Below, piece after piece: positions 1,808 to 64,000 of a stretch of DNA of 64,000 nt. Position 1 is the first letter of the stretch, and every line of letters begins with the position of its first letter. Below the pieces are notes generated by a model. That model did not search any database. It worked only from the letters and a program-made list of their open reading frames with translations, and was not told the origin of the DNA. This DNA comes from Zingiber officinale (Eukaryota > Streptophyta > Magnoliopsida > Zingiberales > Zingiberaceae): contig NC_055991.1 of NCBI RefSeq assembly GCF_018446385.1, positions 121,191,794-121,255,793 of the forward strand, in the 5' to 3' direction. Both the position numbers and the translations under genes were made by a program.

Positions 1808-3344
1808 AATAAAGCAACGACAAACAAAGTCCCAATACTTAGTCTTGGATTAGTAGTGCAGGAAGAATTAAGAATAATAGAAAGAGCTAAATTGGTGTTG
1901 CACCAATTTAGATTTAATCGCAAAGAATAAATTTCCAAAAAAGTAATAATACCAGTTTGGAATTATGCGAAAAATTGAAAGTCGAAAACTAATAAAAGAA
2001 AAGTTTCACCCCCTTGTCTGATTGATGGTTGCACTAAATCAGAGCGGTATCTGTTCTGATACCACTTGTTGGATCGTGAAAGTCGATAGAGAGGGGGTGA
2101 ATATCGATTTTAAACTTTATCGAGAGATTACGCAGCGGAAAATGTATAAGCGAAAAGAAGAGAACAACGCTAACACAATTCGATTTACTTGGTTCGAAGC
2201 CTGTGTCGACTCCTACTCCAAGGCCCGCACACAAGGGTGCTTTCGATGGACAATTCACTAGCAATTCGAAGGTTTGATTACAAATTAAGTACAAGAATGC
2301 TAATGACAAAATAAAACAATATCGACAAAGAAAGAAACTAGAGGAACAGCGCATTGTCGGAGCTTTGCAGCGTCACAGGAGCACAAGAGATCAGATTGTG
2401 AGTTCTATGTTGTTGTTCTGACTCCAGCCTTGACCCTCCTTATATATGAGGTTCGGGATGCCTGGAAACTTTAGGGCGCCCTGACCATGGCGCTCCACGT
2501 GGTGAGGTGATGCTGAGGATAAATTTTTACCTCCGGACGCCCAGGTACCTCCCAGGCGCCCGGACCCTATTTTCTAGCGGTTTCCTACCTGTAAGAAAAC
2601 GTTAGTCCGAGGAAAATATATATCCTACAAAATAAAGTGTTAGCACAGTTTATCATTAAATAAAATATTAATTAGATTCCGTCTCCTCGAGACCGGAATC
2701 TAGTCAAGATCTCGACTTAGAGTTTCGAAATGATTCTAAGTCGGATCGGCACCTAAGTTCCCACTACAACAAAAACCCTCATAGACATCAGTGGAACAAC
2801 AACGGTTTTAAGCAAAAACCGATGTCTTTGAGTATTTTACACCGGTTTTTCCAAAAACCGATGTCTATGAGCGCAGATTTTAGCTCATAGACATCAGTTT
2901 TTTAGGCGATGTCTATGAGCGCCCTTTTTTTCGTTAATAGACATCGATTTTAACAGCGGTTTTTAAAACCTGGTGTTAATGAACCAAAATAAAATATTTT
3001 AATTTTCCCACCAGCCAAAATTTGTAACACGCTCCAAACCTAAATCTATATCGCGCCCCTTCCTCCGCGCGACCATCTCTCGCCTAAACCTAAACCTAAA
3101 CCTCTGACCATCTCTCTCAACCTCATCTCCCTCTTCCTCCTTCCTAGATCGACGCCCCTTCCTCTCCCGATCAGGATCAAGACACGACGCCCTTGCTTCT
3201 CTGTCCAACCACACCGCATCTTCTCTAACTCCTCTCTTTGGTTGAGAAGAGGAAGCCTTCTTTGCATTCCAGTAGTTTTTCCAACTACTGTTATTGTTTG
3301 TTGTTTGTGTGTGTAATTTTCGACTTCAGGATCTAAAAGAGAGA

Positions 3345-3425
3345 TGGCGTTCAATTTCATCGCCAATGGCGACGATTTGAAAGAATAAAAAAGAGAGATG
3401 GTCGTCCAATTTCATCGCCAATGGC
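3345..3425 (+). repeat. ~60 bp tandem duplication in CACTA
   Basis: The segment containing 'tcatcgccaatggcgacg' occurs twice about 58 bases apart (around 3356 and 3413), each copy flanked by 'gagatgg' and 'atttgaa'. It lies just 5' of the captured serine-rich fragment and may be part of an untranslated leader. It is an ordinary replication-type duplication and no function is proposed. Confidence 0.75.
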
Positions 3426-3485
3426 GACGATTTGAAGGAGGAGGAGCACCACCACCACCACTACAGGCACCATCAATAAGGGTCG

Positions 3486-4366: not shown

Positions 4367-4645
4367 TTGGACTAGGTGCTAAAATATGTGCTGATGCGGT
4401 ACGATGAATTTGATTTTAGTTGAACGGGAGGCCTTAGGATTGATCGTCTCCATATGAAGCTAGATTTCATATTTATTACATGCTTTGTTAATTGCGATGA
4501 CATATTTCCCTTTTGTGAATTGAAGTCAATCACAGACACTTGCATAGTTGTGTATATGTGGTAAGCTTTCAATTGAATTGGACTTTATTTATGTGTTTCA
4601 TTAATTTAAATTTCATCATTTTTTTGGAATATTTTCCAATTGTAG

Positions 4646-5385: not shown

Positions 5386-7565
5386 GTAATAATACAATAT
5401 CTTCCATTTTGCATATAAGCCCTAAAGATAATTTGTTGCATTTTCCAACATTGTTTCAGTATCATAATTGATACAAACTCATTGATTTTGATTGATTATG
5501 AACGTCTCTTAGCTTTTGAGATCTTGCTGCTGCTATGCTTTTCCCCTGGTGCTTGATGTGTTTCTATGTTACAATGATTTTTTTGTGAACAACCGGATGC
5601 TTTTCCCCTGGTGATTTTGATAATTTCTATGCTTTTCCCCTGGTGCTTGCTATGATTTTTTTGATACAAACCGGATGCTATGCTTTTGTTACAATGATTT
5701 TTTGGATACAAACTGGATGCTATGCTTTTGTTACAAACCAGATGATTGCTTTTCTAATTTGTTAAGTACTGATTTCTGACTTACATGCCACTGAAATATT
5801 TTCTAAATCTGAAACACACACTCAGAAGAATTTTTTTTTGTATTATTTGTGTGCCTTTACCTTCATTAGATTCGTCTGGCAGGAAGATGTTGTTGATGAA
5901 TATATAGATTCGTGCATATGTAAGTGAAACCCTTCCCATTGTTTGACAAAAGATGACATATTCTCAGACTGAAGCAACACAATGGCATATTAAAAGGTGG
6001 AGCAAAAGCATGCTCTGGTGGAAGGCCTTGGAGTCTTGCATGTATTATTCGAGGATTCTAAATGTCTTTGCTTGACTTTATCAAGTAGATAGCGTCAAGT
6101 TAAAACAGGTGTTAATGCCTCGTGTGTCAAAATCAAAATTGTTGTTATGCATCGAATAAGAGTTGCAAATCTTTTACTACTTTTTACAACTTTGTTCTGC
6201 AACTTTTGGATAATCTATTGTAGGATGCCCAAGATTGTTCAGCAAGTTTATGATTCTGATTCTGCTTAGGCTCAGTTTCAGTCTATAGCTAGTTGATTCT
6301 AATTTTGACAAAATATGACAAAATTTTTTAATGAACCCATATCAGGTGGTTATTAGTAAATAGGACAAAGAAATATATTATCAACATCAATGAACCCATA
6401 TTTTTGCTAACTATTTGGTCAGCTATATGGTTCTTAGTTCTTACTCCTCAATTGAACTCTATGCAATATGCATGACTAAACCATTGGAGTCTTAATTTTG
6501 TCAAGGTCTTCACTTTGTTTAACTATATTATATATTTTATTGAATGTCATTGAATATGTATATTTTTCTCGTGTTCTGGTTATTTGAATTTACAAACTAA
6601 TTGTACAGATGACAAGGAAGAGGGATGACCGGGAAAAGGGAGGAGCGAACGAGAAAAGGAGAATGGGGTCGGACTTCTACCACTGAGGACTTCAGAGCCG
6701 ACCACTGAACTATGCTATGAGACCTAGGGAAAGGATTGAATGTTGGATCTGGACAGGAAGTGAGGCCTACTGCTCCGTGGGGTACCCATTAATGGTTAGG
6801 GATAGTATATCTATTAGCTGGCTTTTGATGTACAAAGAATGTTTGGGTATTTTATGGATATTGTTCTAAGAAGATTATTTATATAATTTATTAATATTTG
6901 TGTATTTTATGGATATTATTGAATGAAGAATATTTGTATAATTTGTGAATATTTGTGTATTTTTTTTTGTTATTGTCGGTTTTTCATGGTTTCGAAAATC
7001 AAATTTGTGAAAAAATATACATATTACATCGGTTTTCCACCGCTGTAAAACCGGTGTTATTAACTAATATTACATCGGTTTTCCACCGCTGTAAAATCGG
7101 TGTCGTTAAGTGATACTACACCGGTTTTAACCCGATGTCTAAAATGACAGACTTTTAACATCGGCTTCATAGACATCGGTCGAAAATGAAATAGACACCG
7201 GTGGAAAACCGATGTCTATGAAGGTTTTTGTTGTAGTGTCCCTTCCCGGGAACGCGTCCTCACAGTCACTGCCCTCCAGTGACTTACCTTCACTTACCTT
7301 CCAGACGTCTGGTCAGCCCTTCGACTTGTCTGGGCTTCGTGCCAGCTATCCGGTCGGCCCGTCGACCTAGCTGGACTTCGTGCCAAACGTCCGGTCAGCT
7401 CGTCAACCCGTTTGGAGTTCGTGCCAAACATCAGGTCGGCCCGTCGACCTGTCTGGGCTTCTCCTGCACACTCGGTCAGAGTGTTAGATAACGACAAAAC
7501 TAACTTAACCTATTTTGTCATTCATCAAAACTTGAGTTAGACCATTAGTGCTAACCACACCAACA

Positions 7566-44708: not shown

Positions 44709-45160
44709 ATGGCCAGACCAGGCATCGTTCCACCAAAATTCGAGGGGGACTTCGCAGACTGGAAGCGTCGTATGGAGGTATTCCTAAGAACTGATTTCGA
44801 AATTCGATTTATTATGAAGTATGGTTTTGTAGCTCCGATGAATCAAGATGGAGAAGAAAAAGAGGAGAGCCATTGGACAAAGAAGGAGCAGAACGAGTCT
44901 GTAGCGAACAGCCGTGCGGAATATCACCTACTGAGCGTACTGCTGCCTCAGGAAGTCAACCGCATCGGAAGCTACTCGTCGGCCAACGAACTTTGGGAGA
45001 AGTTCCTGGAACTCCACGAAGGCACGTCCGAAGCGAAGCTTGCTAGAAGAGACATCCTCCGGAACAAACTGATGAACATCCGTCTGGAAAAAGGTGAGAA
45101 GGTAGCCGGTCTACATGCAAAGGTAAAAGAATTAATTACTGGTCTCGAGAACCTCGGTGA
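44709..45160 (+). CDS. gag region of LTR element D, first part
   Basis: The Copia gag N-terminal module starts MARPGIVPPKFEGDFADWKR and runs to the element E insertion point. It includes the LPQEVNRIGSY and LWEKFLELHEGTSEAKLARR blocks that are shared closely with element E's gag, so D and E are one clade. It is a fossil. Confidence 0.8.
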
Positions 45161-48100
45161 TGTTGGTGCAGCAGGGACCGACAAGAGGGGGGTGAATTGC
45201 CTGCAAATAAAAGCTATACCCTCCTCAACCAATTTAAACTCAAATAAATGCAATAGTTATAAATTTAAACAAAACTAAACTATGAACAGAAAAGAAGGAC
45301 TCAGCTATTTACTTGGTTACAACCAAGAAGGTTGTTAATCCAAGGCAGTAATAAAGTGCTATGAACGATCTCCTTCTCTGAAGGCGGAGAAGCCTTTTAC
45401 ACACTTGGAAGTACAGAACTATTGCTAGAATGAAAGTACAGAAATTGTAGTTCGATTTCGTTGTTTACGTTTGCTGTGTTGAATAGCTACCCGAGACCCC
45501 CTTTATATAGGGGTTATAGAGCTTATCAAATAACCTGAACCTTCGGGATCAGGTTTGACTCGAGAGGGATCGGTCGACCGATCCCCAGGTTTGGTCGACC
45601 GAACCTGCTGTACCTGCCCAGTCTTCCGTCCAGGTGCAGTCTCTGTAGATCGAGCTTGGGTTCGGTCGACCGATCCTTATGTTTGGTTGACCGATATGCC
45701 AACGGCCTCCAGCTGAGTTGACCCGATCAAAATGCTCGACTGAGTCTCTGGATAAACTTGGGTTTGGTTGACCGATAACTTCACCGCTGGCTGATGTGAT
45801 GTTGACGTGTCACCAACGGTTGTGCTCTGATGCAAAGGGGTTCGGTTGACCGATCAGGGTGTTCGGTCGACCGAACCATTGACAAGTCAACTTCCAGTTG
45901 ACTTGTTCTGGTTCGGCTTCCTTGGGTGATTTCGGCCATCCGGAATAGGGCTCACCCGAACCCAGTTCCCGACCTTCTCCTTGAGTAGTCTTCCGTCCCG
46001 GCTTTACATCCCTCGAACACCGCGCATGTTCTTCACGCCCACCGGGTGTACTCTTCCGCAGCTCTCTCGTCCTTTGGAAGCACCGAGCCCGTCGGCTCCC
46101 TTCCCGTGCCGTCCTTCTCGCTAGCTGCATCTTCCGCTCGACTTCCTGCGCTCCTAAGCTCCTGCACACTTAGACACAGGGATCAGACACAAAGCAGGAC
46201 CTAACCTAAACTTGGTTGATCACATCAAAAACTACCACGGGGTTCAACAATCTCCCCTTTTTTGATGTGTATCAACCCAAGTTCAGGTTAGGGTTAAAAC
46301 AAATAGATAGTAATTTAAAGAAATTACTAAACTAACAATTCAGGCATAAATTTACAACTTTAAAATAAATTGCAACATGAAAATTTATACTTAAAATTTT
46401 TTTTAACTAACTCCCCCTAACTGAGCTTATCTTTATTCTCCCCCTTTGATCACATCAAAAAAATTCAAAGTTAAACACTTTCTAAGTAAAGATTAAAAAA
46501 CTGAGTTAGGTTTAATTTCAAAAATTTCTAAGTTTTGAAAAATTTTCCAAGTTAAAATAAATTTTCAGAATTTTCCAAAAAATTTCTAAGTAAAAATTTC
46601 AAGAAACATTTTTTCTAGAGAATTAAAAAATTTAAAGAATTTCTAAGGAAATGTTTAAAAACTTTTCAAAGCATTATTTAATTCTAATTTTAATGCTTTT
46701 ATCAGAAAGTTAATTAAATATTTTTATTTCGATATTTCGGTTTCCAGGTCGTGACGAGACACTTGGCCTTCTTGGTTATTGGAGCAACAACTACTTCCTT
46801 AGACAAAACTTCCATAAAGAACCTCAATGTTTAATTTTCTCACTGTAAGCTTTTAACCAAAAGAGAAATTTAAACCAGTAAAGATTTTGGAACGCAATAA
46901 AGGTTCCTACCTACAGGGTTGGTCAAAAACTTAAGGGGTACATAGTTTCTTGGTATTTTCCTAAGTTGACCCTGATGCTTTCTTATGTACCAATTTAATT
47001 TTTCATATAACTTTAATTTTGAATGTGGAAAAATATTTTTAAAACATGCATCAGTTTTCAATTTTTTAATTTCTAATTTTAAAACTTCATTTTCTGATTT
47101 CAAATATTCATTTTCCTTTTCTACTTTATCTAATTCTTTAGAAAGAGCTTTAATAAAATAAAAGGACTGTTTAGGGTTTAGGGCACGTACCTTACTTACC
47201 TCGTCTTGTGATGCTCCCCCTTCATCACAGCCTTCTTCTTCTGTTGTTCCTCCCCCTTCATCTATGCTCATTTCTGAGCTAGACGTTTCTTCTAGTTGAT
47301 GATTGGCCATCAGTGCTAGTCCCGAGAATTCTTCGACTTCGGATTCGGAGGACGATGAATCATCCCACGTGGCCTTTAGGTTGTATTTGGGTCGAGCTGA
47401 CTTCTTACTCTTTTCTTTACTTTTGCTTTTCAATTTTGGGCAGTCATCTTTGATATGTCCTTCTTCGTTGCAATTGTAGCAACGAACCACTCTTTTATTT
47501 TGTTGGAACTTTTTCGACTGCGATCTAAATTTATTAGATTTAAAAAATTTATTAAAGCGTCTTACCAATAGTGCCGCTTCCGATCCATCGATCGAGGCTT
47601 CGGAGTCAGAACCGTTTGTTCTTGCCTTCAAAGCGATGTTCTGACTTATCTTTTCTACTCCGTTGGGCTCTGCAACTCGAGATTCGTGAAGTTCAAAAGT
47701 AAAAAACAAATGTTCTAGAGTACTTACCTCGAAATCCTTAGAGATGTAGTACGCATCTACTAAGGAGGCCCATTCGGGAGTTCTCGGGAAGGCGTTGAGC
47801 GCGTACCGGATCGAGTCCCGGTTCGTTACTTCTTCTCCAAGATTGGTTAGTTGCGTGATCAGCTCTTTGATCCTTGCTTGGAGTTGCGCTACCTTTTCGC
47901 CTTGGTTCATCCAGAGGTTTGTCAACTAGGTCCGGAGGATGTCGCGCCTTGCTAGCTTTGCCTCAGAAGTACCTTCGTGAAGCTCCAGGAATTTTTCCCA
48001 GAGATCTTTCGCGGAGTCGTAGCTTCCAATCCGATTTACCTCCTGAGGTGGCAGAACGCTGAGCAGGTGGAACTCAGCCTTTCCGTTGGCGACAAAATCG

Positions 48101-49423
48101 GCTTGCTCCTTCTTGCTCCATGTGTTTTCTTCTTTATCTTTCGGCGCTGCAAAACCATATTTCATTGTAATAAGAATATCAAAATCCGTTTTAAAGAATA
48201 CCTCCATTTTTCATTTCCATGTAGTGAAATCTCCGTCGAACTTCGGGGGATGAATGTTCGTGCCGGCCATTGTTATGATCTTTGTGCTTCAGATGGCGGT
48301 TAGTCTCTCTTAGACTGTTAGGCTCTGATACCACTTGTTGGTGCAGCGGGGACCAACAAGAGGGGGGTGAATTGCCTGCAAATAAAAGCTATACCCTCCT
48401 CAACCAATTTAAACTCAAATAAATGCAATAGTTATAAATTTAAACAAAACTAAACTATGAATAGAAATGAAGGACTCAGCTATTTACTTGGTTACAACCA
48501 AGAAGGTTGTTAATCCAAGGCACTAATAAAGTGCTATGAACGATCTCCTTCTCTGAAGGCAGAGAAGCCTTTTACACACTTGGAAGTACAGAACTATTGC
48601 TAGAATGAAAGTACAGAAATTGTAGTTCGATTTCGTTGTTTTCGTTTGCTGTGTTGAATAGCTACCCGAGACCCCCTTTGTATAGGGGTTCTAGAGCTTA
48701 TCAGATAACCTGAACCTTAGGGATCAGGTTTGACTCGAGAGGGATCGGTCGACCGATCCCCAGGTTTGGTCGACCGAACCTGCTGTACCTGCCCAATCTT
48801 CCATCCAGGTGGAGTCTCTGTAGATCGAGCTTGGGTTCGGTCGACCAATCCTTATGTTTGGTCGACCGATCGGCCAACGACCTCCAGCTGAGTTGGCCCG
48901 ATCAAAACGCTCGACTGAAACTCTGGATAAACTTGGGTTCGATCGACCGATCATTTCACCGCTGGCTGATGTGATGCTGACGTGTCACCAACGGTTGTGC
49001 TCTGATGCAAAGGGGTTCGGTTGACCGATCAGGGTGTTCGGTCGACCGAACCATTGACAAGTCAACTTCCAGTTGGCTTGTTCTGGTTCGGCTTCCTTGG
49101 GTGATTTCAGCCATCCGGAATAAGGCTCACCCGAACCCAGTTCCCGGCTTTCTCCTCGAGTAGTCTTCCGTCCCGGCTTTACGTCCCTCGAACACCGCGC
49201 ATGTTCTTCACGCCCACCGGGTGTACTCTTCCGCAGCTCTCTCGTCCTTCGGACGCACCGAGTCCGTCGGCTCCCTTCCCGTGTCGTCCTTCTCGCTAGC
49301 TGCGTCTTCCGCTCGACTTCCTGCGCTCCTAAGCTCCTGCACACTTAGACACAGGGATCAGACACAAAGCATGACCTAACCTAAACTTAGTTGATCACAT
49401 CAAAACTACCACGGGGTTCAACA
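45161..49423 (-). mobile_element. LTR element E (Copia type, gag-only), inside D
   Basis: A minus-strand element: its 5' LTR is 48336-49423, the initiator-Met primer site (complement) 48322-48333, the gag region about 48270-46870, and the 3' LTR 45161-46249. The target duplication ggtga is perfect (45156-45160 and 49424-49428) and falls inside D's gag. The LTRs differ at about 11 of the first 410 positions I compared (near 2.7%), so it is young but not the youngest. The internal region (about 2.1 kb) has no pol. Each LTR carries a dense cluster of 'tcggtcgaccga' palindromes. Confidence 0.93.
46870..48270 (-). CDS. gag region of LTR element E
   Basis: The Copia gag region includes an N-terminal module (48207-47926, EVFFKTDFDILITMKYGF and LLSVLPPQEVNRIGSYDSAK), then RYALNAFPRTPEWASLVDAY, a CCHC zinc knuckle (CYNCNEEGHIKDDC), an acidic Ser-rich stretch and a long coiled coil (47925-46870). 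It ends with the RKIPRNYVPLKFLTNPVGRN block that in full-length Copia elements precedes pol; here the LTR-proximal tail follows instead. It is an LTR-element fossil with about one or two breaks. Confidence 0.85.
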
Positions 49424-50430
49424 GGTGAAACGGTAACAAACCGGGACACCATACGCTACGCACTCAACGCATTTCCTCGAACTCCGGAGTGGACATCAAT
49501 CGTTGACGCCTACTATATTTCAAAAGACCTGGAGGTAAGTACTTTAGAAGAGTTGTTTTCTACTCTTGAGTTACATGAAACCAGGTGTGCAGCTACAACA
49601 AAAGACTCAAGTCAGATAATGGCGTTGAACGCAACCAAGAAGGATGAACCCGAGTCAGACTCCGAAGAAGACCAATAAGCATATATGGTAAGAAACTTTA
49701 AAAAGTTTTTTAGATCTAATAAATTTAAAGAAATGCAGAATAAAAAGAATTTAAGAAATAGAAGAAAAGTGTGTTGCTACCAGTGTCAAAAGGAAGGACA
49801 CTTAAGAGAGGATTTCCCAGAACTAAAGAAGGACAAAATGAAGACACCCAAGAAACACAAGAACTTAAAAGCCACTTGGGACGACACTTCATCATCTTAG
49901 TATGAGATTCAAGAATATGCCGGGATAACACTGATGGCAAGCTATGAAGGACAAAGTACATCAGAACCCAGCATCGATGAAGGGGGAGGGGAGCGACCTC
50001 AGATGGAAGTAGCGAAGCAGGGGGAGATTCAGACTTCAGGTCTGATATGGTAAGTGAGGTATGCCTCTTTCCCCCTGATGAACTTTACTTTGGTATTAAG
50101 GCAATGGCAAAATCCATGTATAAATTAGAAAATAAAAATACTAAATTACAAAATGAAATTATAGAAACAAAAAGAATTTTGGCAAAATCATGTCTTATAG
50201 AGGATTTTGAAAAATTAAAAATTGAAAATGAAAAACTAAAAGAATAAATAAAAAGATTGAAAAATCTAATGGCTCAAATATTTCTACTTTTAGAAATTAT
50301 AGAGGTTTAAATTGGTATTATAGATTTCATCAAAGTCAAATTAGAAATATATCAAAAGTCTATGTACCTAGGAAATATTTGATTAACCCTGTAAGAAGGA
50401 ACCTCTGTTGGGTTCCGAAAACATGTTTAA
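49424..50430 (+). CDS. gag region of LTR element D, second part
   Basis: This continues rightward from the element E insertion with the RYALNAFPRTPEWTSIVDAY block, a CCHC-like zinc knuckle (CYQCQKEGHL), acidic and coiled-coil parts and the RNISKVYVPRKYLINPVRR end block. It is a fossil with several breaks. The following 700 bases up to the polypurine tract are AT-rich and non-coding. Confidence 0.75.
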
Positions 50431-52027
50431 CTTGAATTTTTTTAAACTTAGCATTTTTCAACAAGAAAGTTAAACAGATAGTTTCTTTATGAGGCTTTGT
50501 CTAAGGAAGTGGTTGTTGCTCCAATAACCAAGAAGGCCTAGTGCCTCGCCACGACCTGGAAGCCAAAATACTGAAATCAAATGTTTAATTAACTTTCTGG
50601 AAAAAGTATTAAAGTTAGAATTAAATAATGCTTAAAAGTTGTTAAACATTTGTTTTAAAAATTTTGTTTAACTTAGAAAATGTTTCTAATGAAAAAAAAA
50701 ATTATTATTTTTGGATTTTTTTTTAACTTGACTTAAATTTTTTTTATTGCCTCAGAAACTTTTTTATATATAAAAAAAATTCCTTAAATTTTTTTTTTAA
50801 AATTTTTTTTAAGGTATCTATTCTGTTGCACAAAATTTTATTTTTACTTAGAAATTTTTCCAATGTGCCTTAAAAATTTTTTCCTTATGAATATTTTAAA
50901 CTTAGAATTCTTTTAACACTTAAGATTCTTTTTGAGAACTTACCTTAGACTTGTTTAGAAACCCCTATTTTTTATGTGATCAAAGGGGGAGAAGGATGTT
51001 AAGTCTAGGGGGAGGTAATATATTTTTTAATTGAAATATCTTTAGACTTATTTGCAAATTAATTGCAAATTAATTGTTTTTATTGCATATGTTTACCCTA
51101 ACTTAACTTGGGTTGCTCACATCAAAAAGGGGGAGATTGTTGAACCCCAAGGTGTTTTGATGTGATCAAACAAGCTAAGTTAGGTCCTGCGTTGTCTAAC
51201 CCTTGTGTCTAAGTGTGCAGGAGCTTAGGAACACAGGAAGTCGAGCGGAAGACGCGGCTAGCGAGAAGGACGACACGGGGAGAGAGTCGACGGGCTCGGT
51301 GCGTCCGAGGGACGAGGTGACCGCGGAAGAGTACACAGGTGGACGAGAAGAATGTGCGTGACATTCGAGGGACGAGAAACCGGGAAGGAAGGCTGCTCGA
51401 GGAAAAGGCCGGAACTTGGGTTCGAGTGAGCCCTATTCCGGATGGCCGAGATCACCCAAGCTAGCGGAGCCGGAGCGAACAAGACCCGGACCGAGACGAG
51501 CTGAACCGGAGATGAAAAAGTCAACATTGTTGACTTTGGGCTCCGGGGCGCCTGGAGCCCTCCGGGGCGCCCGGAACCCTTCCGGGCGCCCGAACCTGGA
51601 TTTTGACCAGGATCGCGTCAAACGCGATCTGATCGTTTGGGGGATAAAATTTTATCCCCCCGAGGGCGCCCGGAACCCCTTCGGGACGCCCCGACCAGTG
51701 CTATAAATATAACACTGATCTGCACAGTTAAATCAATGAACTTGTAATTCATTTCTTTCTGTGCTTTCTATTCTTTTGTACTATCAACGCTGTAAGAGGC
51801 TACTCCGCCCAGAGGAGAATCAGATAGTGCGCCGTCTTTGCCTTGGATTAGCAATCCTCTGATTGCAAACCAAGTAAACTCTCTTGTGTCTGATCTTTTA
51901 ATTTAGTCTCTTCTTTTTATTATTACAAGTGTCTGTTAATTAGTTGAATATCCGAGAAAGGTTTTTGGTTTAATTTTTGTAGGGTAATTCACCCCTCCCC
52001 TCTTGCTGGCCTCCAAAGGGACCAACA

Positions 52028-55000
52028 TATTTAAGGTCCTACAGGATCATCTGATACGCCTTAAATAGGTTGAGCTAAATTCCACAGCTTATCTCGTTAC
52101 TAACGACTCTGGCTTATTGGAGGGGCCTCCAGTTGGCATCCGAGGGGTCTTCAGTCAATTGAGGTGCCTTGAGTACTATTCATCGAATGGTCAATTTTAG
52201 CATTGAGTATTCCACTTTCCCGCTCGCTTGGGTGATGCTCTGGTCATCCAGAGTTGAGCTCACCTGAACCCAACTCTGACCTTCTTCTCAAGCAGGCTTC
52301 CTCCTCGGCTTCTCATTCCTCAGATGCCCCGTGCATGTTTGTTTCGCTCCACCGGTGTACTTTTCTATAACTTCTCATCCCTCGAATGCACTAAGTCCAT
52401 CGACTCATTTTTCGTGTCATCCTTCTCGCTCATTGCATCTTCCTCTCGACTTCTTATGTTCCTAATTCCCTGTACTCTTAGACATAAGGTATCAAATCCA
52501 CATGGCTTAACTTAACTCGGTTAAGCATATCAAAATTAACCTAAGGTATTTACATCTCTCCATTTTTGATGTATATCAACCTGAGTTAAAGTTATGATAA
52601 ACATAAAAAATAAATAATTTAACACAATTAAATATATAAATTACAATTTAAAGACTATTTTAAAAATTTTAAACTCCACCTTATCTTAACTCATCAAATT
52701 TCTTCCCTTTGATCATATTAAAAAAACCTTTGAAAATTTTTCTAGGGGATGTAAACACATTATACAAGCATGTGTCTTTTCACTTAAGTTATTTGATATA
52801 GAAAATATTTTTTAACAATTAATCCTCAGTTTTATAAAAATAATTTAAAAATTATTTTAATTTTCAAAAAATCCTAATTTTTTTTGTTAAGGCCAAACAG
52901 AAGTATTTAGATTAGGATAAATTTGTTTACAAATAAATAATTTTATTTTAATCAGAATAAATATTTTTGAATAAAAATTGCTATTTTTTTTAATTTATAT
53001 GCTTAAAAATATATTTGAACTTGTAAAAATCTTGCTAATTTTTCTAAACATAGAAAATATAATGTTTATTTACTGAAAAATTAAGTTGTTCAAAAAATCA
53101 ATATTACAAATTTTTTAATATTAATTTTTTTGGTAAAGAATTTATAAAGAAATATATATCAAATGAAAAAAAATCAAAAATATTTATGCTAATAGATAAC
53201 ATTTTTATCTATCTCAAAAAAATATTTAATAGAAAAATCAAATAGATAATATTTAAAGTTATTTTTTCTAAAAAAAAATTCAAACGTGCATATAAAATTT
53301 ATTTCTAACAAAAATAATTTAATGACTCAAAATAGATTTAGATACCTAAAATAATTGCTTATCTACTAGATTTATTAATTAATTTAGTGGGATATTATTT
53401 TTGATATCTTTTTAATTTGACCCTTATGATTTTTCAAATACTAATTAAGTCTTCCAATATTTTTAAAATTCAAAATACATATAGAATTTGAATTTGAGTA
53501 TGAAGAATTCTATTTGATCTTTTAATTTTTTATTTTCAATTTGAATTTATCAAATTGTTCTAAAGGACATGTTGTTGCTAATTTAATTTTGAGATCAATG
53601 TTATCTTTCTTTTTTTTTTTAATTTTAAATACTTGGACCTTAATTTGCATAAAGACCTAGATATCAGTTTAATACCTTAACAAAGTTGGTCAAGAGGTAT
53701 AATACGTACCTCACTTACCATTTCAGTTTCATAGTTTGAGTCTCCCCCTTCATCGATTCTTTTCTCTGAAGTAGCTCCCTCTTCATCGATGCTCTCTTTT
53801 TGGTGACTTGCCATTAATACTAGTTCGGTATACTCCTCAAACTCGGACTCTTCTTATGACGACTCATCTCATGTTGCTTTGAGGTTCCTCTGTTTGGTCT
53901 TTCTTGACCCTTTATCCTTCTCTTTTTCTTTTAAATTGGGACGGTTATCTTTAATATGCCCTTTTTTATTTCAGTTGTAGCATTTCAGTTTCCTTTTTCC
54001 CAAAAAAACTTCTTGCCCTGTGTCTTATTAAATCTATTAGTTTTAAAAAACTTATTTAGCTTTCTTATCATATATTCTTCTTCATCTTCTTTGCTCGAGG
54101 AATATAACCCTTGTTCGTACTTCTTGTTGGCTTTTAGCAATAAATTTTGATTTGACTTCCTTTCTTTTCTTAAACATGCACATCTTGAGTCGTGTAATTC
54201 TAAAGTTGAAAATAGTTCTTAAAGTACTCACCTCTAGGTCTTTTGAGATGTAGTAAGCATTTACTATTGATGTCCACTATTGGGTTTTCAGAAAGACATT
54301 GAGTGCATATTGGATTGAGTTCTGATTCGTTACTATTTCACTGAGGTTGGTGAGTCCAGTAATTATCTCCTTAATCTTTACGTATAGTTGAACCATCGTT
54401 TCTTGTTTTTCCATTTGGAGGTTTGTTATTTGATTTTGGAGGATATCCCATCTTGCCAGCTTGGCCTCCAATATTCCTTCATGAAGCTCTAGGAAATTCT
54501 CCTAGAGTTCTTTAACCGAGTCATAGGTGTTAATCTGATTGACTTCTTAGGATAGTAATACACTTAGCAGATAGAACTCTGCTTTGTTGTTGGCCATAAA
54601 GTCAGCTTGTTCCTTTTTGCTCCAGAGATGTTCTTCTTTTTCTTCTCCGTGCTGATTTTTGAGTGTTACAAAATCATATTTGATTGTAAGAAGAATGTTA
54701 AAATTAGTCTTGAGAAAAACCTCCATACAGTGCTTCAAAAGTGCAAACTCCTCCTCGAACTTCAATGGATGAATGCTTGATTTGACCATCGTCTTGTTAC
54801 TTTAGTCAACTACTAATCTTTCTAAAGTGGTTGACCTCTGATAGTGGACTGTCTAGAGGGGGAGTAAATAACTTACAATAAAAAGTTAACACTTCTCTTG
54901 CTATCAAATGTAGCAAGAACACACAGTTAATTTATTAAAATAATAAGACATAAATAAAGTAAGAGACACAACGAATTTACTTGGTTTACAACTACGAAGG

Positions 55001-55843
55001 TTGTTAATCCAAGGTAGTAGAAGCTCAACTAAAAATATCTCTTTTGTTGATGCCGAAGTAGACTCTTACATACTTTGAAAGCTCAGAAACTAAAGAATGA
55101 ATGTAGAAATAAAGCACAGATTGTGTTATGAACTAAGAGGACAAGCTTTCTATTTATAGCCCAATGGTCAAAAGTGGCAGTTTGCTAATATAGCAGCTTG
55201 AGATGTCTCGGACAGTTGGAGGCACCTCCAAGTAGATAAAGATTTATCCACGCCAATGTTCTCTTTTTTGATTTGGCAGATTGGAGGTGCCTTGAGTAAT
55301 CCACCGTGCCTCAACTACAGTTCATGCAATGCGCCTTGGATCATTTGAGGCGCCTTGAATAGGATGAGTTGGACTCCATAGCTTATATCTTGGCCAATGG
55401 CTCCAGCTTATTGGAGGCACCTCCAATTGACCTGAGACGCTTTGGGTACTATTCATCTGAGGTGTCTCCAATCAATTGAAGCGCCTAGAGCAGTGTTCAC
55501 CGAATGGTTAATTTCAGCATTGACCATTCCACTGTCCCGTTCGCTTGGGTGATATTTCAGCCATCCGGATTTGAGCTCACACGAACTCGACTCTGACATT
55601 CTCTTTGAACAGACTTCCTCCCCAACTTCTGCTCCCTCGAATGAGCCATGCACGTCATTCTCGCTCTACCGGTGTACTATTCCACAACTTCTCATCCCTA
55701 GGATGTATCGAGTCTATCGATTCACTTTTTGTGTCACCCTTTTTACTCGCTCGCGTCCTGCACACTTAGACACAAGATATCAAATCTACAGGACCTAACT
55801 TAACTCGGTTGAACACATTAAAAATAACCCGAGGTACTTATAT
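52028..55843 (-). mobile_element. LTR element F (Copia type), decayed
   Basis: A minus-strand element, the oldest of the group by decay. The right (5') LTR is about 54846-55843, the gag region about 54790-53700, and the left (3') LTR is only partly left (52028-52551), abutting the D insertion. Both LTR parts share the order of U3 blocks with elements C to E and H (for example the conserved block around 55480-55770) and a TATA-like box (minus, 55158-55151). The primer site is degenerate. No pol is seen. It has many breaks. Confidence 0.75.
53700..54790 (-). CDS. gag region of LTR element F
   Basis: Recognisable Copia gag blocks (EVFLKTNFNILLTIKYDF, EAKLARWDILQNQITNLQ, YALNVF and a faint zinc knuckle near 53925-53990) are spread over this interval. 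It is a fossil with many breaks. Confidence 0.65.
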
Positions 55844-56023: not shown

Positions 56024-56031
56024 TGGGTGAC

Positions 56032-56687: not shown

Positions 56688-57932
56688 TCAACTGTCTGTG
56701 GTCCACGGGGTCATGTCCATGGGGTAGCTGCCGAGGACTCGGAGGAAGGAGGTGAACTCCTGGACCTCGGCGAGGGCGTTCTGGGCGCGGGGCTCCGCCA
56801 GCGACGCCTGGAAGTCCAGGTAGAAGGTGTAGTCGAAATTCTTGGCCGTGGCCCTTGTCTCCTCCTCCGGCACCCCCCGCTGTTCCTCCTCCCGGATCGG
56901 CCGCCGGCGTTGAGGCCGGCTCTCGATCTTGGTCAGCCCGATGTCGCGGAACGCAAAAGCCGAGAGCACCTTGAACAGCACCGAGGTTCCCTCGTGGTCG
57001 TGCGCCGCGAACACGATGCTGGTCTTGAACGGCCGGTCGGCCCGCGGCACGATCGGCTCCCGCGCCAGCATCACGAACCGCGTCACGTTTCCTTGGTCGT
57101 CCTGGATCCCTTTCGCCAAGATCTCCAGCCCGTAGAGTTCGGCCGCCCGCGCCGATGCGATGGCGGCCGTGTCCCTCAGGCCGTTCGCCGACACGTACTC
57201 GGCCGCCCCGGCAGTGTCGTAGAAGGCCTCGCGCACCACGGTCAGCCCCAGGGCCGTGAGCGTGTCCTCGCACTGCGCCAGCGCCTGCGGGTGGCTGATG
57301 ACTCGAGTGAGCTGTTCCCGGCGCACGCCCGGGAGCGCCAGCAGGCAGTGGTGCACCGGCAGTTGCACTTCGCCCACGATGTGGAGGCGGTGGCGCAGGA
57401 GGAGGTCATAGTTGCGGTGGATGCTGCCTCCTAGCGAGTTCTCCACTGGGAGGACGGCGCGGTCGGCCACCCACTGCTCCACGGCCTGGAACGCCGCCTC
57501 GAACTGGTCGCAGGGGATGGCATCGCAGTTGGGGTAGGCCTTGGCGGCGGCGGGCTCGCTGTAGGCGCCCGGCACGCCCTGGTACGCCACGCGCAGCTGA
57601 GATCCGTGTTTTGGGGCGAGCGACGGGTCGGCGATGGTGAGTGGCTGTGGGAGGCAGAGGGGCACGATGTCCATCATGGAGCCAGAGGAGGAGGATGTAG
57701 TTGCCAGAAGATCATGGTTGTCCTCAGCTGGATTCTGCGGTGGCGGTGGCTCTTGATGTTGGTGGGAGGAGACGTTGCTGGAGAGGATGGAGCAGGCGCT
57801 GAGCCAATCGGAACGGCTGGAGACGACGGCGCTGTGGAAGAAAGGGGAGGTGCCAGGCCGGTGAACGCAACGAACCAAGTGGCTGGATGATCGTCCCAAG
57901 AATGTAGGAGGCGTCAAGATTGCAGCCGCCAT
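56688..57932 (-). CDS. ADT: arogenate/prephenate dehydratase, plastid, intronless
   Basis: Intact, 414 residues, no intron. It makes phenylalanine from arogenate (the last step of the shikimate-to-Phe route) in plastids. Residues 1 to ~110 are a Ser/Pro-rich transit and linker region. The prephenate-dehydratase catalytic domain follows ([13 protein letters not shown] from 114, [18 protein letters not shown] near 161-178, [11 protein letters not shown] near 212-222, and the catalytic TRF triplet at 284-286). The ACT regulatory domain follows (from about 303, [23 protein letters not shown], with the phenylalanine-binding ESRP at 337-340). Both domains are needed for feedback control by Phe. The very high GC and single exon are usual in grasses and related monocots. 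Whether it also uses prephenate cannot be read from the sequence. Confidence 0.96.
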
Positions 57933-58041: not shown

Positions 58042-58053
58042 CATGGAGGGAAC

Positions 58054-59586: not shown

Positions 59587-61313
59587 TGTTGGATCAAAAA
59601 CGTTGGAGGAGGAGGAGGAGGAGGAGGAGGAGGGGGGGGGGGGTGAATTGCACTCGTGACTTTTACTTTTCATTTCAGAAGAATAAGAGTAAACGTAGTG
59701 GAAATAAGAACAAACAGCGCAAACACCAAAATTTACTTGGTTCGGAGCCTTGGGTGACTCCTACTCTAAGGCCCGCGATCGTTGATCGCTTTCGGTGGGG
59801 AATCACTATCAATTCGTAAATTTTTACAACTTTGAAGTATAATTAAATGCAGTAAAATATACCAACGACAAAAGAGAATAGTGAACTTGAAGTTTCTGGT
59901 CTTCGGAGTCGAGTTACGGCTTTGTCGGAATGTTCTTTAGGCAGCACATGGAAGATGGACCATGTTTCTGATGTTGTTGCTTGCTGTTGCTCGAGACCTG
60001 CTTATAAAGCTCGTGGAGGGCACCTCCAACACCATGGAGGGAACCCTCAACCTCTCCAAATCCGCAACATGGATGAGCTCTGACCCGGTCACTGTCTATC
60101 CGCCTGAGGGCGCCCTCAACCTCCATGAGGGCACCCTCGCACCAGTGTCCAGGGCGCCCTCAAGCTCCATGAGGGCACCCTCGCGCCTTGCTGCGAGAGG
60201 GTCTTCTCCAGGTTCCTTGAGGCAAACACTCCAATTCACTTCCTACAAAATACGTTAGTACAACATATCCTGCAAAACAGAGTTAAGACATAATAAGACA
60301 TAGAATTCAAAAGTCATCAGACTGTCCGGTTTTGACTTCGGATTCTCGATCGGAAAACCTAGGTCGAACCGACGTTTACTGTTCCCTCACCGGGGAACAC
60401 ATCCTCACTTACTCCACTCAGGAGAGTTTACTTGTTGCTCGTTGATCCTCCAGACCAACTAAACTTTTGCTCAGCGCCCAAGGCTCCAGGACTTTTCATT
60501 GGACGCTCGCTCCACGATCCGCCCAACCTTTCACTTGGTTCGCGACACCAGGACTTTCCACCTAGAGTCCTCGACTCTAGGACTTTTTGCCCGAAGCCCT
60601 TGACCCGCCAAGACTTTTCGCCCATGGTTACCACCCCTTAGAACCTAGGGTTATCTCTCCTTAGGGTTTTCCACCTGCCTAACCGCAGCTAGGACTTTTG
60701 CCTAAGTACACTTAGGACTTTCTTGCAAACTCATTCAAACACATTAGATAACAAAACAACTTAACTTTGGATCCTTTGCCATAATCAAAACACAGGTTCG
60801 ACCGTCGGATGCTTCCCGCACCAACAATCTTCCTCTTTTTTATTATGGCAACATGGTACAAAGTCAAGTAAAATATAACAAAATAATAAAGAAATTTAAG
60901 CAACTTTAAGCATGATCATACAATAATTTGAAAAAAAATTCCTTATGCTCCCCTTTTAAATTCCTACTTAACTTTAACTTTTCTCGTCCCCTCTTGACAT
61001 AACTAAAAAATTAATACTAAGTAAAGAGAAGGTTGTTAAAAACATATCTAAGCTCCTTTGAAGGGCAACACTTAGCTTTGAGAATAATTTCTTTGAAAAA
61101 CATTTAGCTAAATTAGAAATTCTTGTGAAAATACTTAGTCTTTTCAACAAAAACTTAACTTTGAAAGGATTTTGATAAACAATTATGTTGATAAAAGCTT
61201 AGTTTTGATACTTAATTTTATGAAAGTTTTGAAAAAGACTTAGTTAAAAATACTCAGTTAAAAAAGGATTTTGATTAAAGCTTAGTTAAAATGATAAAAA
61301 CTAAGTTAAGTAC
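59587..61313 (-). mobile_element. LTR element G (Copia type, same family as A), 3' part
   Basis: The LTR is 59587-60826 (TGTTGGATC...CACCAACA), followed by a polypurine tract (complement at 60827-60842) and AT-rich internal 3' end (60843-61313), so the element is minus-strand and its body lay to the right. The LTR order of blocks matches the LTR of element A (for example 'acttggttcggagcc' and 'ctcctactctaaggcccgcg'). The TATA box is at 60008-60001. It is cut by element H at 61313 and not seen again in the window. Confidence 0.8.
59603..59643 (+). repeat. GGA microsatellite plus G run in LTR G
   Basis: About nine GGA triplets are followed by a run of roughly twelve G, near the LTR end. The related LTR of A has only 'gagaggggg' here, so it has expanded in this copy. 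The G-rich strand could form quadruplexes. Confidence 0.85.
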
Positions 61314-64000
61314 TGTTGGTGCAGCGGAGATCGGCAAGAGGGGGGTGAATTGCTGAATACAAAAATGAAAATACCCTCCTCGTACTTTCAACTCAGTTAG
61401 TGCAATAGTTAACAAAATAATAAAACAGTAAAAGAAAGACACAGAAGAATTAACCTGGTTACAACCAAGGAGGTTGTTAATCCAGGGCAATAGAAGCGCA
61501 CTAAAAGAAACTCTCCTTTGCTGAAGGCGGAGAAGCCTTTTACACTTTCAAAAGCTCAGAACTATTGCTAGGAAACACTACAGATTGATTGCTTGAGTTG
61601 TTGTTGAATTCCTAGCTCCAGGGGCCTTTTTATAGCTCCTGGAAAGTCTATCCCGAGGGTCCAAGGCGCCTCCAACAAGGTTCAAGGCGCCTCCAGCTCG
61701 GTCAGCGGATAAAACTTGCGCCTTCAACAGGCTTGAAGGCGCCTTCAAGGGCGCCTTCCAGGACGCCTTCCAGGGCGCCTTCAAGGGCGCCTCCAAGCTT
61801 CCAGCTTAGTTTCTTCAGCTTCCTTCGCTCCGTTCTTTTGGGTGATTGCGGCCAACCGAAATAGGGCTCACCCGAACCCAATTCACGGCCTTCCTCGAGC
61901 AGCCTTCCGTCCCGGCTTAACGTCCCTCGAACGCCACACACGCTCTTCACGCCCACCGGAGTACTCTTCCGCAGCTCTCTCGTCCTTCGGACGCACCGAG
62001 CCCGTCGGCTCCCTTCCCGTGCCGTCCTTCTCGCTAGCTGCGTCTTCCGCTCGACTTCCTGTGCTCCTAAGCTCCTGCACACTCAGACACAGGGATCAAA
62101 TACAACGCAGGACCTAACCAACTTGGTTAATCACATCAAAACTACTATGGGGTCCAACAATAATCTCCCCCTTTTTGATGTGCATCAACCCAAGTTCAAG
62201 TTAGGGTTAAAAATAGACAAAAAAATAGTAATTTTAAAGAAAAATTACTAAACTAACAAGTTAAGAATAATTTTTGCAATTAGTAAAATTGCAACACATT
62301 TTATAAAAATAATAACAGAAAATTTAAAATTTTCTAACTCCCCCTAAACTTGTACTTTTCTCTCCCCCTTTGATCACAGCAAAAATGGGGTCCTAATTAG
62401 AGGGAACTTTTTAAAAAAATTCCAAGTAAATAAACTTTTAGAATTTTCCAAAAGAATATTTCGAAATTTTTTTTTAAGGATTTTCCAAAAAAAATTTCAA
62501 GGCAAAAAGCAAATTAAGTCTTTAGAATTTTTTCCAGGAAAAAATATTTCTAAAAATGAATTTATATATAAAAAAAAAATTAAAAATGTTTGATTAAACT
62601 TTCAAAGCATTATTTAATTCTAATTTTTAAATGCTTTTTCAGAAAGTTAATTAAACCTTTCATTTCAATATTTCAGCTTCCAGGTCGTGGCGAGCCACTA
62701 GGCTTTCTTGATTATTGGAGCAACAACCACTTCCTTGACAAAGTTTTATAAAGAAATTACTGTTTAATTTTCTTCTCTGAAAGCGCTAAGTCTAATATTG
62801 CAACTAAGATCAAATATTATGATTTTTAAATTTCTATTTTAACTTCTCATAAGTTCTTAATTCATAGTTTTTTAGAATTATGACAAAAAATATTGAGCAT
62901 GCAAAAAATTGTACATTTTCTATTGTTAGTTTGTCAAAATCTTTTAATTGACAAATTGTGTCTTTTAACTCAATATTCTTTAATAGTTTTTTATTTTTTA
63001 ATTTAAAATATTCTTTCGACGAAATAATTTGTAATTCACGAAAACTTTTCGACAATATTTCAATTGAAACAATTAATTTGCCAAGAGGTGGAGACCATAC
63101 CTGACTTACCTTGTCGGCGGTTGATTCTCCCCCTGTTGAGTTGTTTTCATCTTCTGATGTTTCTCGCCCTTCATCGATGCTCATTTGTGATGAGCATTCT
63201 AGGTCTTCAAGTTGGAGTTCGGTTACTGGTTCTGTCTCGGCACTTACCTCAGTTTCGGACTCTTCTGACGTCGAATCAGTGTCCATCGAGGAGTCAGATT
63301 CAACTTCAATTTGTTCTTCGTGGAGTTTTAAGAACTTTTCCCAAAGTTCTTTTGCGCTATTGTACTCTCCGACTTTGTCGAGATCTTCATTTGGTATTGT
63401 GGTTAGAAGATGAAATTCAGCTCGTGCATTTGCCATAAACTCGTCACGTTGCTTCTCGTTCCAGAGGTATTTCTCGAGCTCTTCTCCGTTTGCTTTCTTT
63501 GGTACTTCATAACCAGATTTCATTATTAGATAAATAGAAAAATCAGAGTTAAGGTATACCTCCATCTTTTGCTTCCATGAAGCAAACTCCCCCTCGAATG
63601 CAAGTGGGTAGTCACTGTCTCCGGCCATCGTTTTGATCGTTGTGCGTCAGTCGGCGGTTAGTCCTTCTGAGCGGTCTGGCTCTGATACCACTTGTTGGTG
63701 CAGCGGAGACTGGCAAGAGGGGGGTGAATTGCTGAATACAAAAATGAAAATACCCTCCTCGTACTTTCAACTCAGTTAGTGCAATAGTTAACAAAATAAT
63801 AAAATAGTAAAAGAAAGACACAGAAGAATTAACCTGCTTACAACCAAGGAGGTTGTTAATCCAGGGCAATAGAAGCGCACTAAAAGAAACTCTCCTTTGC
63901 TGAAGGCGGAGAAGCCTTTTACACTTTCAAAAGCTCAGAACTATTGCTAGGAAACACTACAGATTGATTGCTTGAGTTGTTGTTGAATTCCTAGCTCCAG
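61314..64000 (-). mobile_element. LTR element H (Copia type, gag-only), window-truncated
   Basis: The left (3') LTR is 61314-62159, the internal region 62160-63692, and the right (5') LTR begins at 63693 and leaves the window. The primer site complement (gctctgatacca) is at 63679-63690. The 5 bp left flank is agtac. The two LTRs differ at only 4 of the 308 positions visible in both (1.3%), so this is the youngest insertion here. The internal region (1.5 kb) holds gag and an AT-rich tail but no pol. It lies in element G. Confidence 0.92.
62834..63628 (-). CDS. gag of LTR element H
   Basis: 264 codons beginning MAGDSDYPLAFEGEFASWKQ, with the Copia gag N-terminal module, ELWEKFLKLHEEQIEVESDS, an acidic Ser/Glu stretch and a coiled-coil end. 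It is closest in layout to element C's gag, including the direct step from LHEE to the acidic stretch without the mid-gag part and zinc knuckle. It is an LTR-element fossil; the frame looks open over this length. Confidence 0.85.
   Translation of the reverse strand: MAGDSDYPLAFEGEFASWKQKMEVYLNSDFSIYLIMKSGYEVPKKANGEELEKYLWNEKQRDEFMANARAEFHLLTTIPNEDLDKVGEYNSAKELWEKFLKLHEEQIEVESDSSMDTDSTSEESETEVSAETEPVTELQLEDLECSSQMSIDEGRETSEDENNSTGGESTADKVSQVWSPPLGKLIVSIEILSKSFRELQIISSKEYFKLKNKKLLKNIELKDTICQLKDFDKLTIENVQFFACSIFFVIILKNYELRTYEKLK

Follow-up and report, generated by a model that had tools for sequence, protein, structure and literature searches.

Promoter-proximal U3 in a set of ginger LTR retrotransposons carries arrays of short palindromes, and the positional pattern upstream of the TATA box is real. 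We give a probability of about one half (0.52) to the reading that this part of U3 is an exchangeable module of short palindromic sites for a trans-acting dimeric factor that aids transcription. The sites, commonly 17-22 bp apart, would form an array whose end lies upstream of the TATA box. Each palindrome would most likely be a putative target of a trans-acting protein that binds a specific DNA sequence as a dimer. The candidate protein may be a transcription factor of the host, or an anti-silencing factor from host or element, and its binding would help transcription of the element. Gain and loss of units would make the array grow, shrink and homogenise, and modules would move between LTR families via recombination. 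We propose that an element whose modules are exchanged by recombination could therefore switch factor with the rest of the LTR unchanged.

Palindrome arrays in the window and in the genome

The window is a 64,000-nt stretch of Zingiber officinale (NC_055991.1, 121,191,794-121,255,793, forward strand). Masked BLAST places C, D, E, F and H in a single LTR family (family 1) and A, B and G in a second (family 2), so the eight LTR groups are not independent. The D element (43782-52027, plus strand) has LTRs at 43782-44652 and 51138-52027 and a target-site duplication, TATTT. Nested inside it is the E element (45161-49423, minus strand), with LTRs at 49423-48336 and 46249-45161 and the duplication TCACC. 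D LTRs run from TG to CCAACA, and both elements show the TG...CA ends and target-site duplication of Copia LTR retrotransposons. Four element ORFs were scanned, giving two matches: a Copia-type gag in D (PF14223, E-value 2.1e-10) and a zf-CCHC knuckle alone in E (E-value 3.4e-7). The scanned ORFs of C and H matched no domain family. No pol-like ORF was recognised among ORFs of at least 90 aa, of which the four element ORFs had been scanned for domains; the copies may be degraded. The primer binding site, assigned to initiator methionine tRNA, is TGGTATCAGAGC beside the 5' LTR in D, E and H, and TGGCATCAGAGC in C. By LTR ends, gag and primer site, the host elements would fit a gag-only, non-autonomous Copia type (TR-GAG-like). 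Rfam gave no match at gathering scores across the window.

The arrays were found in the window with the sequences and positions that the sequence-only reading reported. Significance was assessed against 300 dinucleotide shuffles per LTR over the 400 bp that precede the TATA box, shortened to 250 bp in A and B. In family 1, C (39318-39482, plus strand) consists of partly decayed 19-bp units, GGGCGTCCGGAATCAATTC, with a GGCGCCTGGAACCCTCCAGGCGC hairpin; TRF returns a period of 19, and its 15 hairpins compare with 1.5 in shuffles (reached by 0 of 300). Both D arrays, on the plus strand, carry GGGCGCCC, with 18 hairpins against 1.6 in the 5' LTR (44188-44320) and 25 against 1.6 in the 3' LTR (51540-51690), where the units are 19 bp. 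Both E arrays, on the minus strand, carry TCGGTCGACCGA: the 3' LTR (45568-45880) has palindromes every 21 bp and 19 hairpins against 1.4, and the 5' LTR (48740-49055) has 14 against 1.4. The remaining arrays of this family lie on the minus strand: F (55212-55490), a degraded GGAGGCACCTCC/GGAGGTGCC array with 7 hairpins against 1.3 (2 of 300), and H (61662-61800), a AGGCGCCT array of 12-bp units with 13 against 1.6. In family 2, G (60014-60190, minus strand) is a GAGGGCGCCCTC array with 10 hairpins against 1.2. The promoter-proximal U3 of A (2446-2600, minus strand) is weak; it holds GGCGCC palindromes, 4 perfect ones of at least 8 bp against 1.11 in shuffles (reached by 5 of 300), and 0 hairpins. 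B (38355-38402, plus strand; TATA downstream at 38474) has GGGCGCCC-type repeats not above chance.

A palindrome cluster had been claimed for every LTR, which overstates the case. Counted as inverted repeats with 6-bp arms, an excess is present in eight of the ten window LTRs (C, D1, D2, E1, E2, F, G and H; 0-2 of 300 shuffles reach the count). A had none by this count and so was not above chance, and B was at chance, being matched by 76 of 300 shuffles (109 of 300 for palindromes). The check originally suggested, perfect palindromes of at least 8 bp against shuffles, is less favourable in the window. The shuffles out of 300 reaching the observed count were 5 for A, 109 for B, 233 for C, 14 for D1, 20 for D2, 11 for E1, 0 for E2, 58 for F, 25 for G and 14 for H. 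B, C and F fall short on this count alone, as do D2 and G once a 5% level is applied. Hairpin-rich stretches are not limited to LTR promoters. Among 33 overlapping 250-bp bins with at least 8 hairpins and z of at least 4, manual sorting put 16 in LTR promoter regions and 17 elsewhere; the top two (z 20 and 21) both lie in D.

From 80 fetched loci we obtained 98 LTRs, and scored 71 family-1 LTRs with a downstream anchor, one per locus, all from one contig. The excess at the promoter-proximal position holds in this set. Inverted repeats there reach 12.7 times the dinucleotide shuffles, with an excess in 70 of 71 LTRs; hairpins number 13.7 against 1.09 expected, and perfect palindromes of at least 12 bp, present in 44 of 71, number 1.10 against 0.07. 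Distal U3 and R-U5 of the same 71 LTRs are near expectation for hairpins (0.61 against 0.66 and 1.44 against 1.16). Simple GC bias, named beforehand as something that would undo the pattern, does not explain the arrays, because distal U3 at 61% GC has ratios of 1.2 and 2.6 whereas the array at 52-55% GC has 11.7 and 14.5. The 12-bp E palindrome, TCGGTCGACCGA, has 47,023 exact copies in the genome (23 for its control), and the G palindrome, GAGGGCGCCCTC, has 4,704 (20 for its control).

Replacement, sharing and turnover of arrays

A typed palindrome core is present in 69 of the 71 LTRs. No LTR of the 71 scored for D together with H cores, or for E alongside a core of another type; D and C cores do mix. 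Mapped on a tree of distal U3, palindrome labels change 14 times against 31.9 with shuffled labels (0 of 200 shuffles as low), although the four E rows taken by themselves show no clear clustering there (28 of 500). Palindrome type does follow subfamily, as had been proposed. Strict specificity is unsupported, because identical palindromes recur in other LTR backbones.

The array is replaced between conserved flanks. E and H share 0.87 identity in distal U3 and 0.73 in R-U5, as similar as H is to H (0.87 and 0.74), yet their arrays match at 0.44 against 0.42 for shuffled sequence and are therefore unrelated. This agrees with the cassette-like replacement first suggested. The U3 block GCGAGAAGGACGGCACGG, said to be common to C, D, E, F and H, is exact in E1 and H only. 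It has one mismatch in E2 and both D LTRs, 3 and 2 in the first C LTR, and 1 and 2 in extra C-type LTRs. In F it was not found within three mismatches; F itself aligns to the block region at about 69%, and an F-like fragment at 52412 has the block with three mismatches.

E-type and G-type palindromes also occur in LTR backbones that show no detectable mutual similarity, a new observation. Family placement covered 14 loci chosen by palindrome (8 for TCGGTCGACCGA and 6 for GAGGGCGCCCTC) and used BLAST with palindromes masked. Of the eight TCGGTCGACCGA clusters, one was in family 1, two were in family 2 and five were in a third group matching neither; in seven of the eight the palindrome sits 22-71 bp upstream of the TATA box. 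The six GAGGGCGCCCTC clusters divided into three of family 1 and three of family 2. Two backbones share a promoter segment: from approximately the last palindrome through the TATA box, two family-2 E-type LTRs show 65-71% identity to six E-type LTRs of family 1, against 49-55% to their fellow family-2 LTRs A, B and G. Exchange of a promoter module with the flanks kept is seen in the E-for-H replacement and in this E-type segment common to two families; for G-type arrays, exchange between families was not borne out.

The claim that arrays change fast fared well. Counting indels from a conserved block inside the LTR, we found, also as a new observation, that in all 16 scored pairs an array indel of at least 10 bp separates an element's two LTRs. 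These roughly unit-length indels span 11-95 bp, and 15 of 21 contain a core; the segment from TATA through R-U5 has none in the 16 pairs. Core CpGs in these pairs were lost by transition in 10 of 64 cases, compared with 106 of 645 for other CpGs of the same LTRs. Core CpGs thus decay like the others and leave no footprint of protection, so protection of the cores from decay is rejected.

It is possible, if unlikely, that mutation alone is responsible, with units created and homogenised, to no benefit of the element, by slippage and template switching when it is reverse-transcribed or replicated. The indels in every scored pair, the homogeneity of units within an LTR and the hairpin-rich stretches elsewhere in the window are consistent with this, and hairpin-templated correction could yield covarying arms. 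However, the 11.7- and 14.5-fold excess in promoter-proximal U3 stands far above the rest of the elements, and mutation alone does not lead one to expect one palindrome in separate families or an adjoining R-U5 without large indels. A recognition array could also attract silencing. Host recognition of the arrays by small RNA or methyl-DNA machinery, which the arrays change to escape, would account for their fast change and replacement, but a palindrome harmful to its element would hardly be expected to recur across families, and we consider this highly improbable.

Binding sites, folded DNA or RNA

The sequence-only reading had left the choice between a recognition array and hairpin DNA. Dimeric DNA-binding-site arrays are favoured, because we see no selection on an RNA strand and symmetry is lost outside the E 12-mer. 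Beyond that 12-bp palindrome, 20 of 50 positions in E arrays are paired, with 24 expected. GGTCGACC arms match their own partner at 4.07 of 7 positions against 3.77 with other palindromes in the LTR (p 0.07), and GGCGCC arms at 3.40 against 3.45 (p 0.5). With flank symmetry and arm matching at about chance, pure self-complementarity of the array units is disfavoured.

Cruciforms, or folds of single-stranded cDNA, might instead open or shield the TATA box, with sequence mattering only as self-complementarity. Proximal U3 alone does fold strongly on both strands (MFE z about -6), and the TATA box is enclosed by a dyad whose arms covary in one LTR group, a further new observation. In the D 5' LTR the dyad is GACCAGTGC-TATAAATA-TAGCACTGATC (44318-44345, plus strand), and its covariation was scored in 33 genome LTRs; in the D 3' LTR (51693-51720, plus strand) one arm is mutated. 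The E 3' LTR has ACCCC-TATATAA-AGGGGGT (45496-45514, minus strand) and H has TCCAGGAGC-TATAAAA-AGGCCCCTGGA (61617-61643, minus strand), of which the related form CTATATAAA was also counted. Within the TATAAATA group (n=33), pair position 2 is GC in 18 and TA in 12, and this position is 0.91 paired against 0.48 with arms re-dealt (maximum of 1000 deals, 0.76). A GATAAA dyad (n=52) behaves similarly, with one pair G-C in 23 and C-G in 16, at 0.81 against 0.37. By a cruder score, a stem of at least 9 pairs at the TATA box occurs in 34 of 86 LTRs against 12% with arms re-paired. Covariation is weak in a second TATA group, family 3 contributed no scored TATA dyad, and scoring with a common centre across all LTRs gave no clear covariation. 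Structure alone would need neither the 47,023 exact copies of the E 12-mer nor its reuse in other backbones, and symmetry in the E array ends at that 12-mer. We consider structural DNA a doubtful account of the arrays as a whole.

The genomic RNA carries a transcribed U3 at its 3' end. Hairpins there could act in packaging, stability, export or poly(A) control, and the strong predicted folding of proximal U3 is in line with this. The two strands fold equally, however (-117.0 kcal/mol sense, -118.5 antisense; the sense value is the lower one in 29 of 71 LTRs), and the predicted excess of G.U is missing: stem mismatches are 33 G.T to 51 A.C (p 0.06), and 9 to 14 in 100 listed TATA dyads. Sense-strand RNA structure is disfavoured, and RNA hairpins are a very unlikely explanation.

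Several observations count against the binding-site module that we favour. The covarying TATA and GATAAA dyads are unexplained by fixed-sequence sites, core CpGs decay as others do, and palindrome spacing is 19, 21, 22, 17, 20 or 12 bp, that is, not one helical repeat. Nor are consensus sites of several factor classes enriched in the 71 LTRs: HSF-type GAAnnTTC and TTCnnGAA number 4 against 10.0 and 10 against 10.8, E2F sites (TTTSSCGC), which would mark an E2F-regulated promoter, 1 against 4.9, and G-box, LBD (2-base spacer) and TCP sites show no enrichment. [TA]GGCGCC[TA] occurs 100 times against 1.7 expected, but this motif simply represents the array core. Likewise CGGAA...TTCCG spaced by 3 bases (10 sites in 9 of 71 LTRs against 0.1) belongs to the D unit. 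We also see GTCAAC..GTTGAC, a W-box-like dyad, in 29 of 71 LTRs against 0.0 in shuffles. A bolder version of the module, speculative and on balance improbable, would have the palindromes as interchangeable addresses for a few trans-acting dimeric factors, perhaps element-encoded anti-silencers, traded among at least three LTR families, with a structure-conserved TATA dyad gating firing.

Relation to known promoter modules

The phenomenon is a variant of known LTR promoter-module evolution. Subfamilies of Tnt1 of tobacco reportedly differ chiefly in U3 regulatory repeats, and a review notes a variable U3. The ginger arrays resemble that description, as distinct from the Tnt1 sequence, in having U3 repeats that vary by subfamily. 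VANDALs, which are DNA transposons, offer another parallel. Short motifs recognised by VANC accumulate in non-coding parts of Arabidopsis VANDALs by tandem repeat formation and evolve together, and one set of these motifs occurs as well in the unrelated element AT9TSD1 (PMC5735166). The ginger arrays likewise are dense short motifs in non-coding DNA with tandem-repeat gain and loss; VANDALs encode VANC, an anti-silencing protein, and the word palindrome is absent from the main text of that source.

In HERVH LTR7, promoter modules recombine between subfamilies and a factor motif, SOX2/3, is known (PMC8912925). By comparison with that account, a ginger palindrome type spans separate LTR families, and sister LTRs show indels in the module, which is an array of palindromes. 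For ONSEN and Brassicaceae COPIA LTRs, heat-responsive elements are described as gained in several families, the ONSEN one by duplication of a proto-site (PMC5059998). Both cases would place factor-binding elements, putative sites in ginger, in Copia LTRs. Unlike ONSEN as presented there, the 71 ginger LTRs have no excess of nGAAnnTTCn or nTTCnnGAAn (ratios 0.4 and 0.9), and several different palindromes form arrays. A literature search on palindromes in ginger-family LTRs had a chloroplast paper as its sole match, from which we do not claim absence from print; no LTR paper by title was among the matches listed for GGTCGACC.

The covarying TATA-box dyad is a second question, separate from the arrays. 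If the arrays are binding sites, the ginger genome would offer a natural setting in which to study how a retrotransposon switches its driving factor, whether of host or element origin. TCGGTCGACCGA alone has 47,023 copies and is found in three LTR families, and because the arrays of one element's two LTRs already differ, the speed of change is measurable.

Palindromes upstream of the TATA box

Clusters of short palindromes, here called arrays, stand upstream of the TATA box in promoter-proximal U3. The sequence-only reading had placed such a cluster at every LTR of the window, which spans C6:121191794-121255793. Compared with shuffles, 8/10 window LTRs have an excess, while that of group A is weak and group B fails. 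If perfect palindromes of at least 8 are counted, B, C and F fail, D2 (the second D LTR) and G are marginal, and the rest remain above chance. Hairpin-rich bins are not confined to LTR promoters, as 17 of 33 such window bins fall elsewhere. Short repeats of CATAGACATCAGT- and ACATCGGTTTTCCACCG-type at 2750-3000 and 7021-7128, MITE-like by eye, show hairpin excess outside LTRs.

C, D, E, F and H belong to a single LTR family (family 1) with a conserved block in distal U3; a second (family 2) comprises A, B and G. The block, GCGAGAAGGACGGCACGG, matches exactly at 3,632 sites on the forward strand and 3,638 on the reverse in the 3.09 Gb and 211 contigs searched. For a genome sample, we took the loci around 98 copies among the first 100 matches listed, all on contig C1. 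An anchor downstream of the TATA box was present in 88/98 LTRs; of these, 71 remained after taking a single LTR per locus whose anchor lay at a normal distance. Proximal U3, a 280-bp stretch that stops 70 bp short of the anchor and includes the TATA box, holds 13.7 inverted repeats per LTR (6-bp arms, loops 0-12) versus 1.09 in dinucleotide shuffles, and 70/71 LTRs exceed their own expectation. Perfect palindromes of at least 12 average 1.10 versus 0.07 (44/71 LTRs). Folding z is -6.3 in proximal U3, -0.9 in distal U3 and -1.0 in R-U5, and hairpin counts in the latter two are near the shuffled expectation. In 18 two-LTR elements, the proximal-U3 interval exceeds expectation 14.5-fold in one LTR and 11.7-fold in the other; the ratio is 6.4 and 3.9 in the adjoining bin and 0.6 to 3.4 in the remaining bins.

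Within the window, the E element (TSD TCACC) is nested in opposite orientation in the D element (TSD TATTT) at 43782-52027. There is a Copia-type gag ORF in D and a zinc-knuckle ORF in E; no pol was recognized among the window elements, of which four ORFs were scanned. C-type LTR sequence stands in tandem at 41062-43664 (period 1,270 bp; 41062-42336 against 42332-43606, 96%), as if by head-to-tail LTR recombination. An F-like LTR fragment at 52137-52622 (76% to 55454-55748) adjoins the end of D. A GC-rich stretch at 56688-57932, minus strand, contains a single uninterrupted ORF of 414 aa in which a prephenate dehydratase domain is recognized (PF00800, E 1.8e-61). It resembles a plant gene for arogenate/prephenate dehydratase, without introns and lying amid LTR elements.

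Array types and turnover

Each of the 71 family-1 LTRs was labeled by rule with its commonest palindrome core: 30 are H type (AGGCGCCT), 23 D type (GGGCGCCC), 12 C type and 4 E type (GGTCGACC), and 2 lack any typed core. Palindrome identity had been proposed to follow subfamily, and it does: the distal-U3 tree needs 14 type changes versus 31.9 with shuffled labels, and the R-U5 tree 12 versus 32.2 (each 0/200 as low). The number of switches is unsure because branch support is low (starred inner branches, 1/68 and 12/68, respectively) and the four E rows alone do not clearly cluster on the distal-U3 tree (28/500 shuffles as low). Cassette-like replacement also held up. Across 40 pairs each, E and H flanks are as similar (distal U3 0.87, R-U5 0.73) as those of H pairs (0.87, 0.74), whereas their arrays are unrelated, at 0.44 versus 0.42 shuffled and 0.68 within H. 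In the most similar E-H pair, identity is 0.94 over distal U3 and 0.42 over the array. One LTR, L055, joins a D-clade distal U3 to an H-type array, its TATA not matched by the pattern used; it is possibly a recombinant.

The suspected fast change of arrays is borne out by sister LTRs. Two elements (L061, L063) were dropped as the anchor was absent from one LTR. All 16 scored pairs have an array indel of at least 10 bp, 21 in 4,518 bp, compared with 4 in 2,640 bp of distal U3 and zero in 4,400 bp of TATA-R-U5. Their lengths run from 11 to 95 bp, nine being 19-21 or 38, and 15 of the 21 contain a palindrome core. TATA-R-U5, at 0.022, has a lower substitution rate than distal U3 (0.045) and array (0.044), which are similar. 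Sister LTRs are usually identical at the outset (PMC4379980), so arrays turn over within the age of a single insertion.

Structure or site

The two strands of the 71 proximal U3 regions fold alike (sense -117.0, antisense -118.5), and G.T does not exceed A.C among stem mismatches, either in 87 LTRs (33 and 51) or in 100 TATA dyads among the matches listed of 12,892 (9 and 14). Both results make selection on sense RNA less likely. For the E palindrome, we used 50 sites among the matches listed of 17,120, both sides free, adjoining CGGTCGACCG. The outer position was paired in 20 versus 24 expected, and the inner was nearly fixed (46/50), which reads as a fixed 12-mer being recognized, not as retained self-complementarity. 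In GGCGCC arrays, an arm matches its partner no better than it matches arms of other units of that LTR; in GGTCGACC arrays it matches its partner only slightly better (p 0.07).

In many LTRs, the TATA box itself is enclosed by an inverted repeat; CCAAGGCTATAAATATAGCCTTGG occurs 4,195 and 4,317 times versus 0 for the control. In the TATAAATA group (33 LTRs), pairing is 0.91 at position 2 (GC 18, TA 12) versus 0.48 with arms re-dealt (maximum 0.76, 1000 deals) and 0.91 at position 3 (AT 18, GC 12) versus 0.52 (maximum 0.79), and position 1 lies within the re-dealt maximum. In the other TATA group (29 LTRs), position 2 alone exceeds its own re-dealt maximum, 0.52 versus 0.48. The second flanking pair of an upstream GATAAA dyad is G-C in 23 and C-G in 16 of 52 (0.81 versus 0.37); all these counts are of LTRs, not events, and few independent changes may underlie the covariation. 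At the TATA dyad, structure or hairpin-templated correction may operate, the sole mechanisms we would defend. Another dyad, GTCAAC..GTTGAC, occurs in 29/71 promoter-proximal U3 regions (family-1 LTRs, L009-L088) versus 0.0 in shuffles; it consists of two W-box-like cores in facing orientation.

The same palindromes in separate LTR families

The E-type 12-bp palindrome TCGGTCGACCGA has 47,023 copies genome-wide versus 23 for its reversed control, and the G-type GAGGGCGCCCTC 4,704 versus 20. The eight TCGGTCGACCGA clusters fetched include one family-1 LTR (L094) and two of family 2 (L093, L095); the others (L089-L092, L096) are mutually similar, without a match to either family at E 1e-4 over the stretch compared. 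The last palindrome starts 22-24 bp upstream of TATA in L089-L092 and 69-71 bp upstream in L093-L095; in L096 the TATA box was not placed with confidence. Over 100 bp through TATA, the two family-2 E-type LTRs share 65-71% identity with six E-type LTRs from family 1 (z 7.4 to 11.5). The value is 49-55% against the family-2 groups A, B and G (z 0.6 to 2.7) and 51-58% against six family-1 H-type LTRs (z 1.5 to 5.5). The E case therefore looks like exchange of a module. The six GAGGGCGCCCTC clusters fetched divide between family 1 (L097, L098, L102) and family 2 (L099-L101), with matches flanking the array on both sides. Without their palindromes, the arrays have little in common between families (z -1.2 to 3.4; at least 16 within), so the G case seems to reflect unit exchange or else independent gain. 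Some 8-9-base spacers are similar by eye between the two families' arrays.

Most economically, these would be promoter-proximal arrays of putative dimer sites, read upstream of TATA by a factor acting in trans, amplified via unit turnover and traded between LTR families. In mode of working, we liken the ginger arrays to VANC-read motif arrays, HRE gains in Copia LTRs and LTR7 modules. Unlike HRE-bearing Copia LTRs, the proximal U3 of the 71 LTRs has no enrichment of sites matching the HRE consensus. Because the palindromes recur in separate families, we infer that the array benefits the element.
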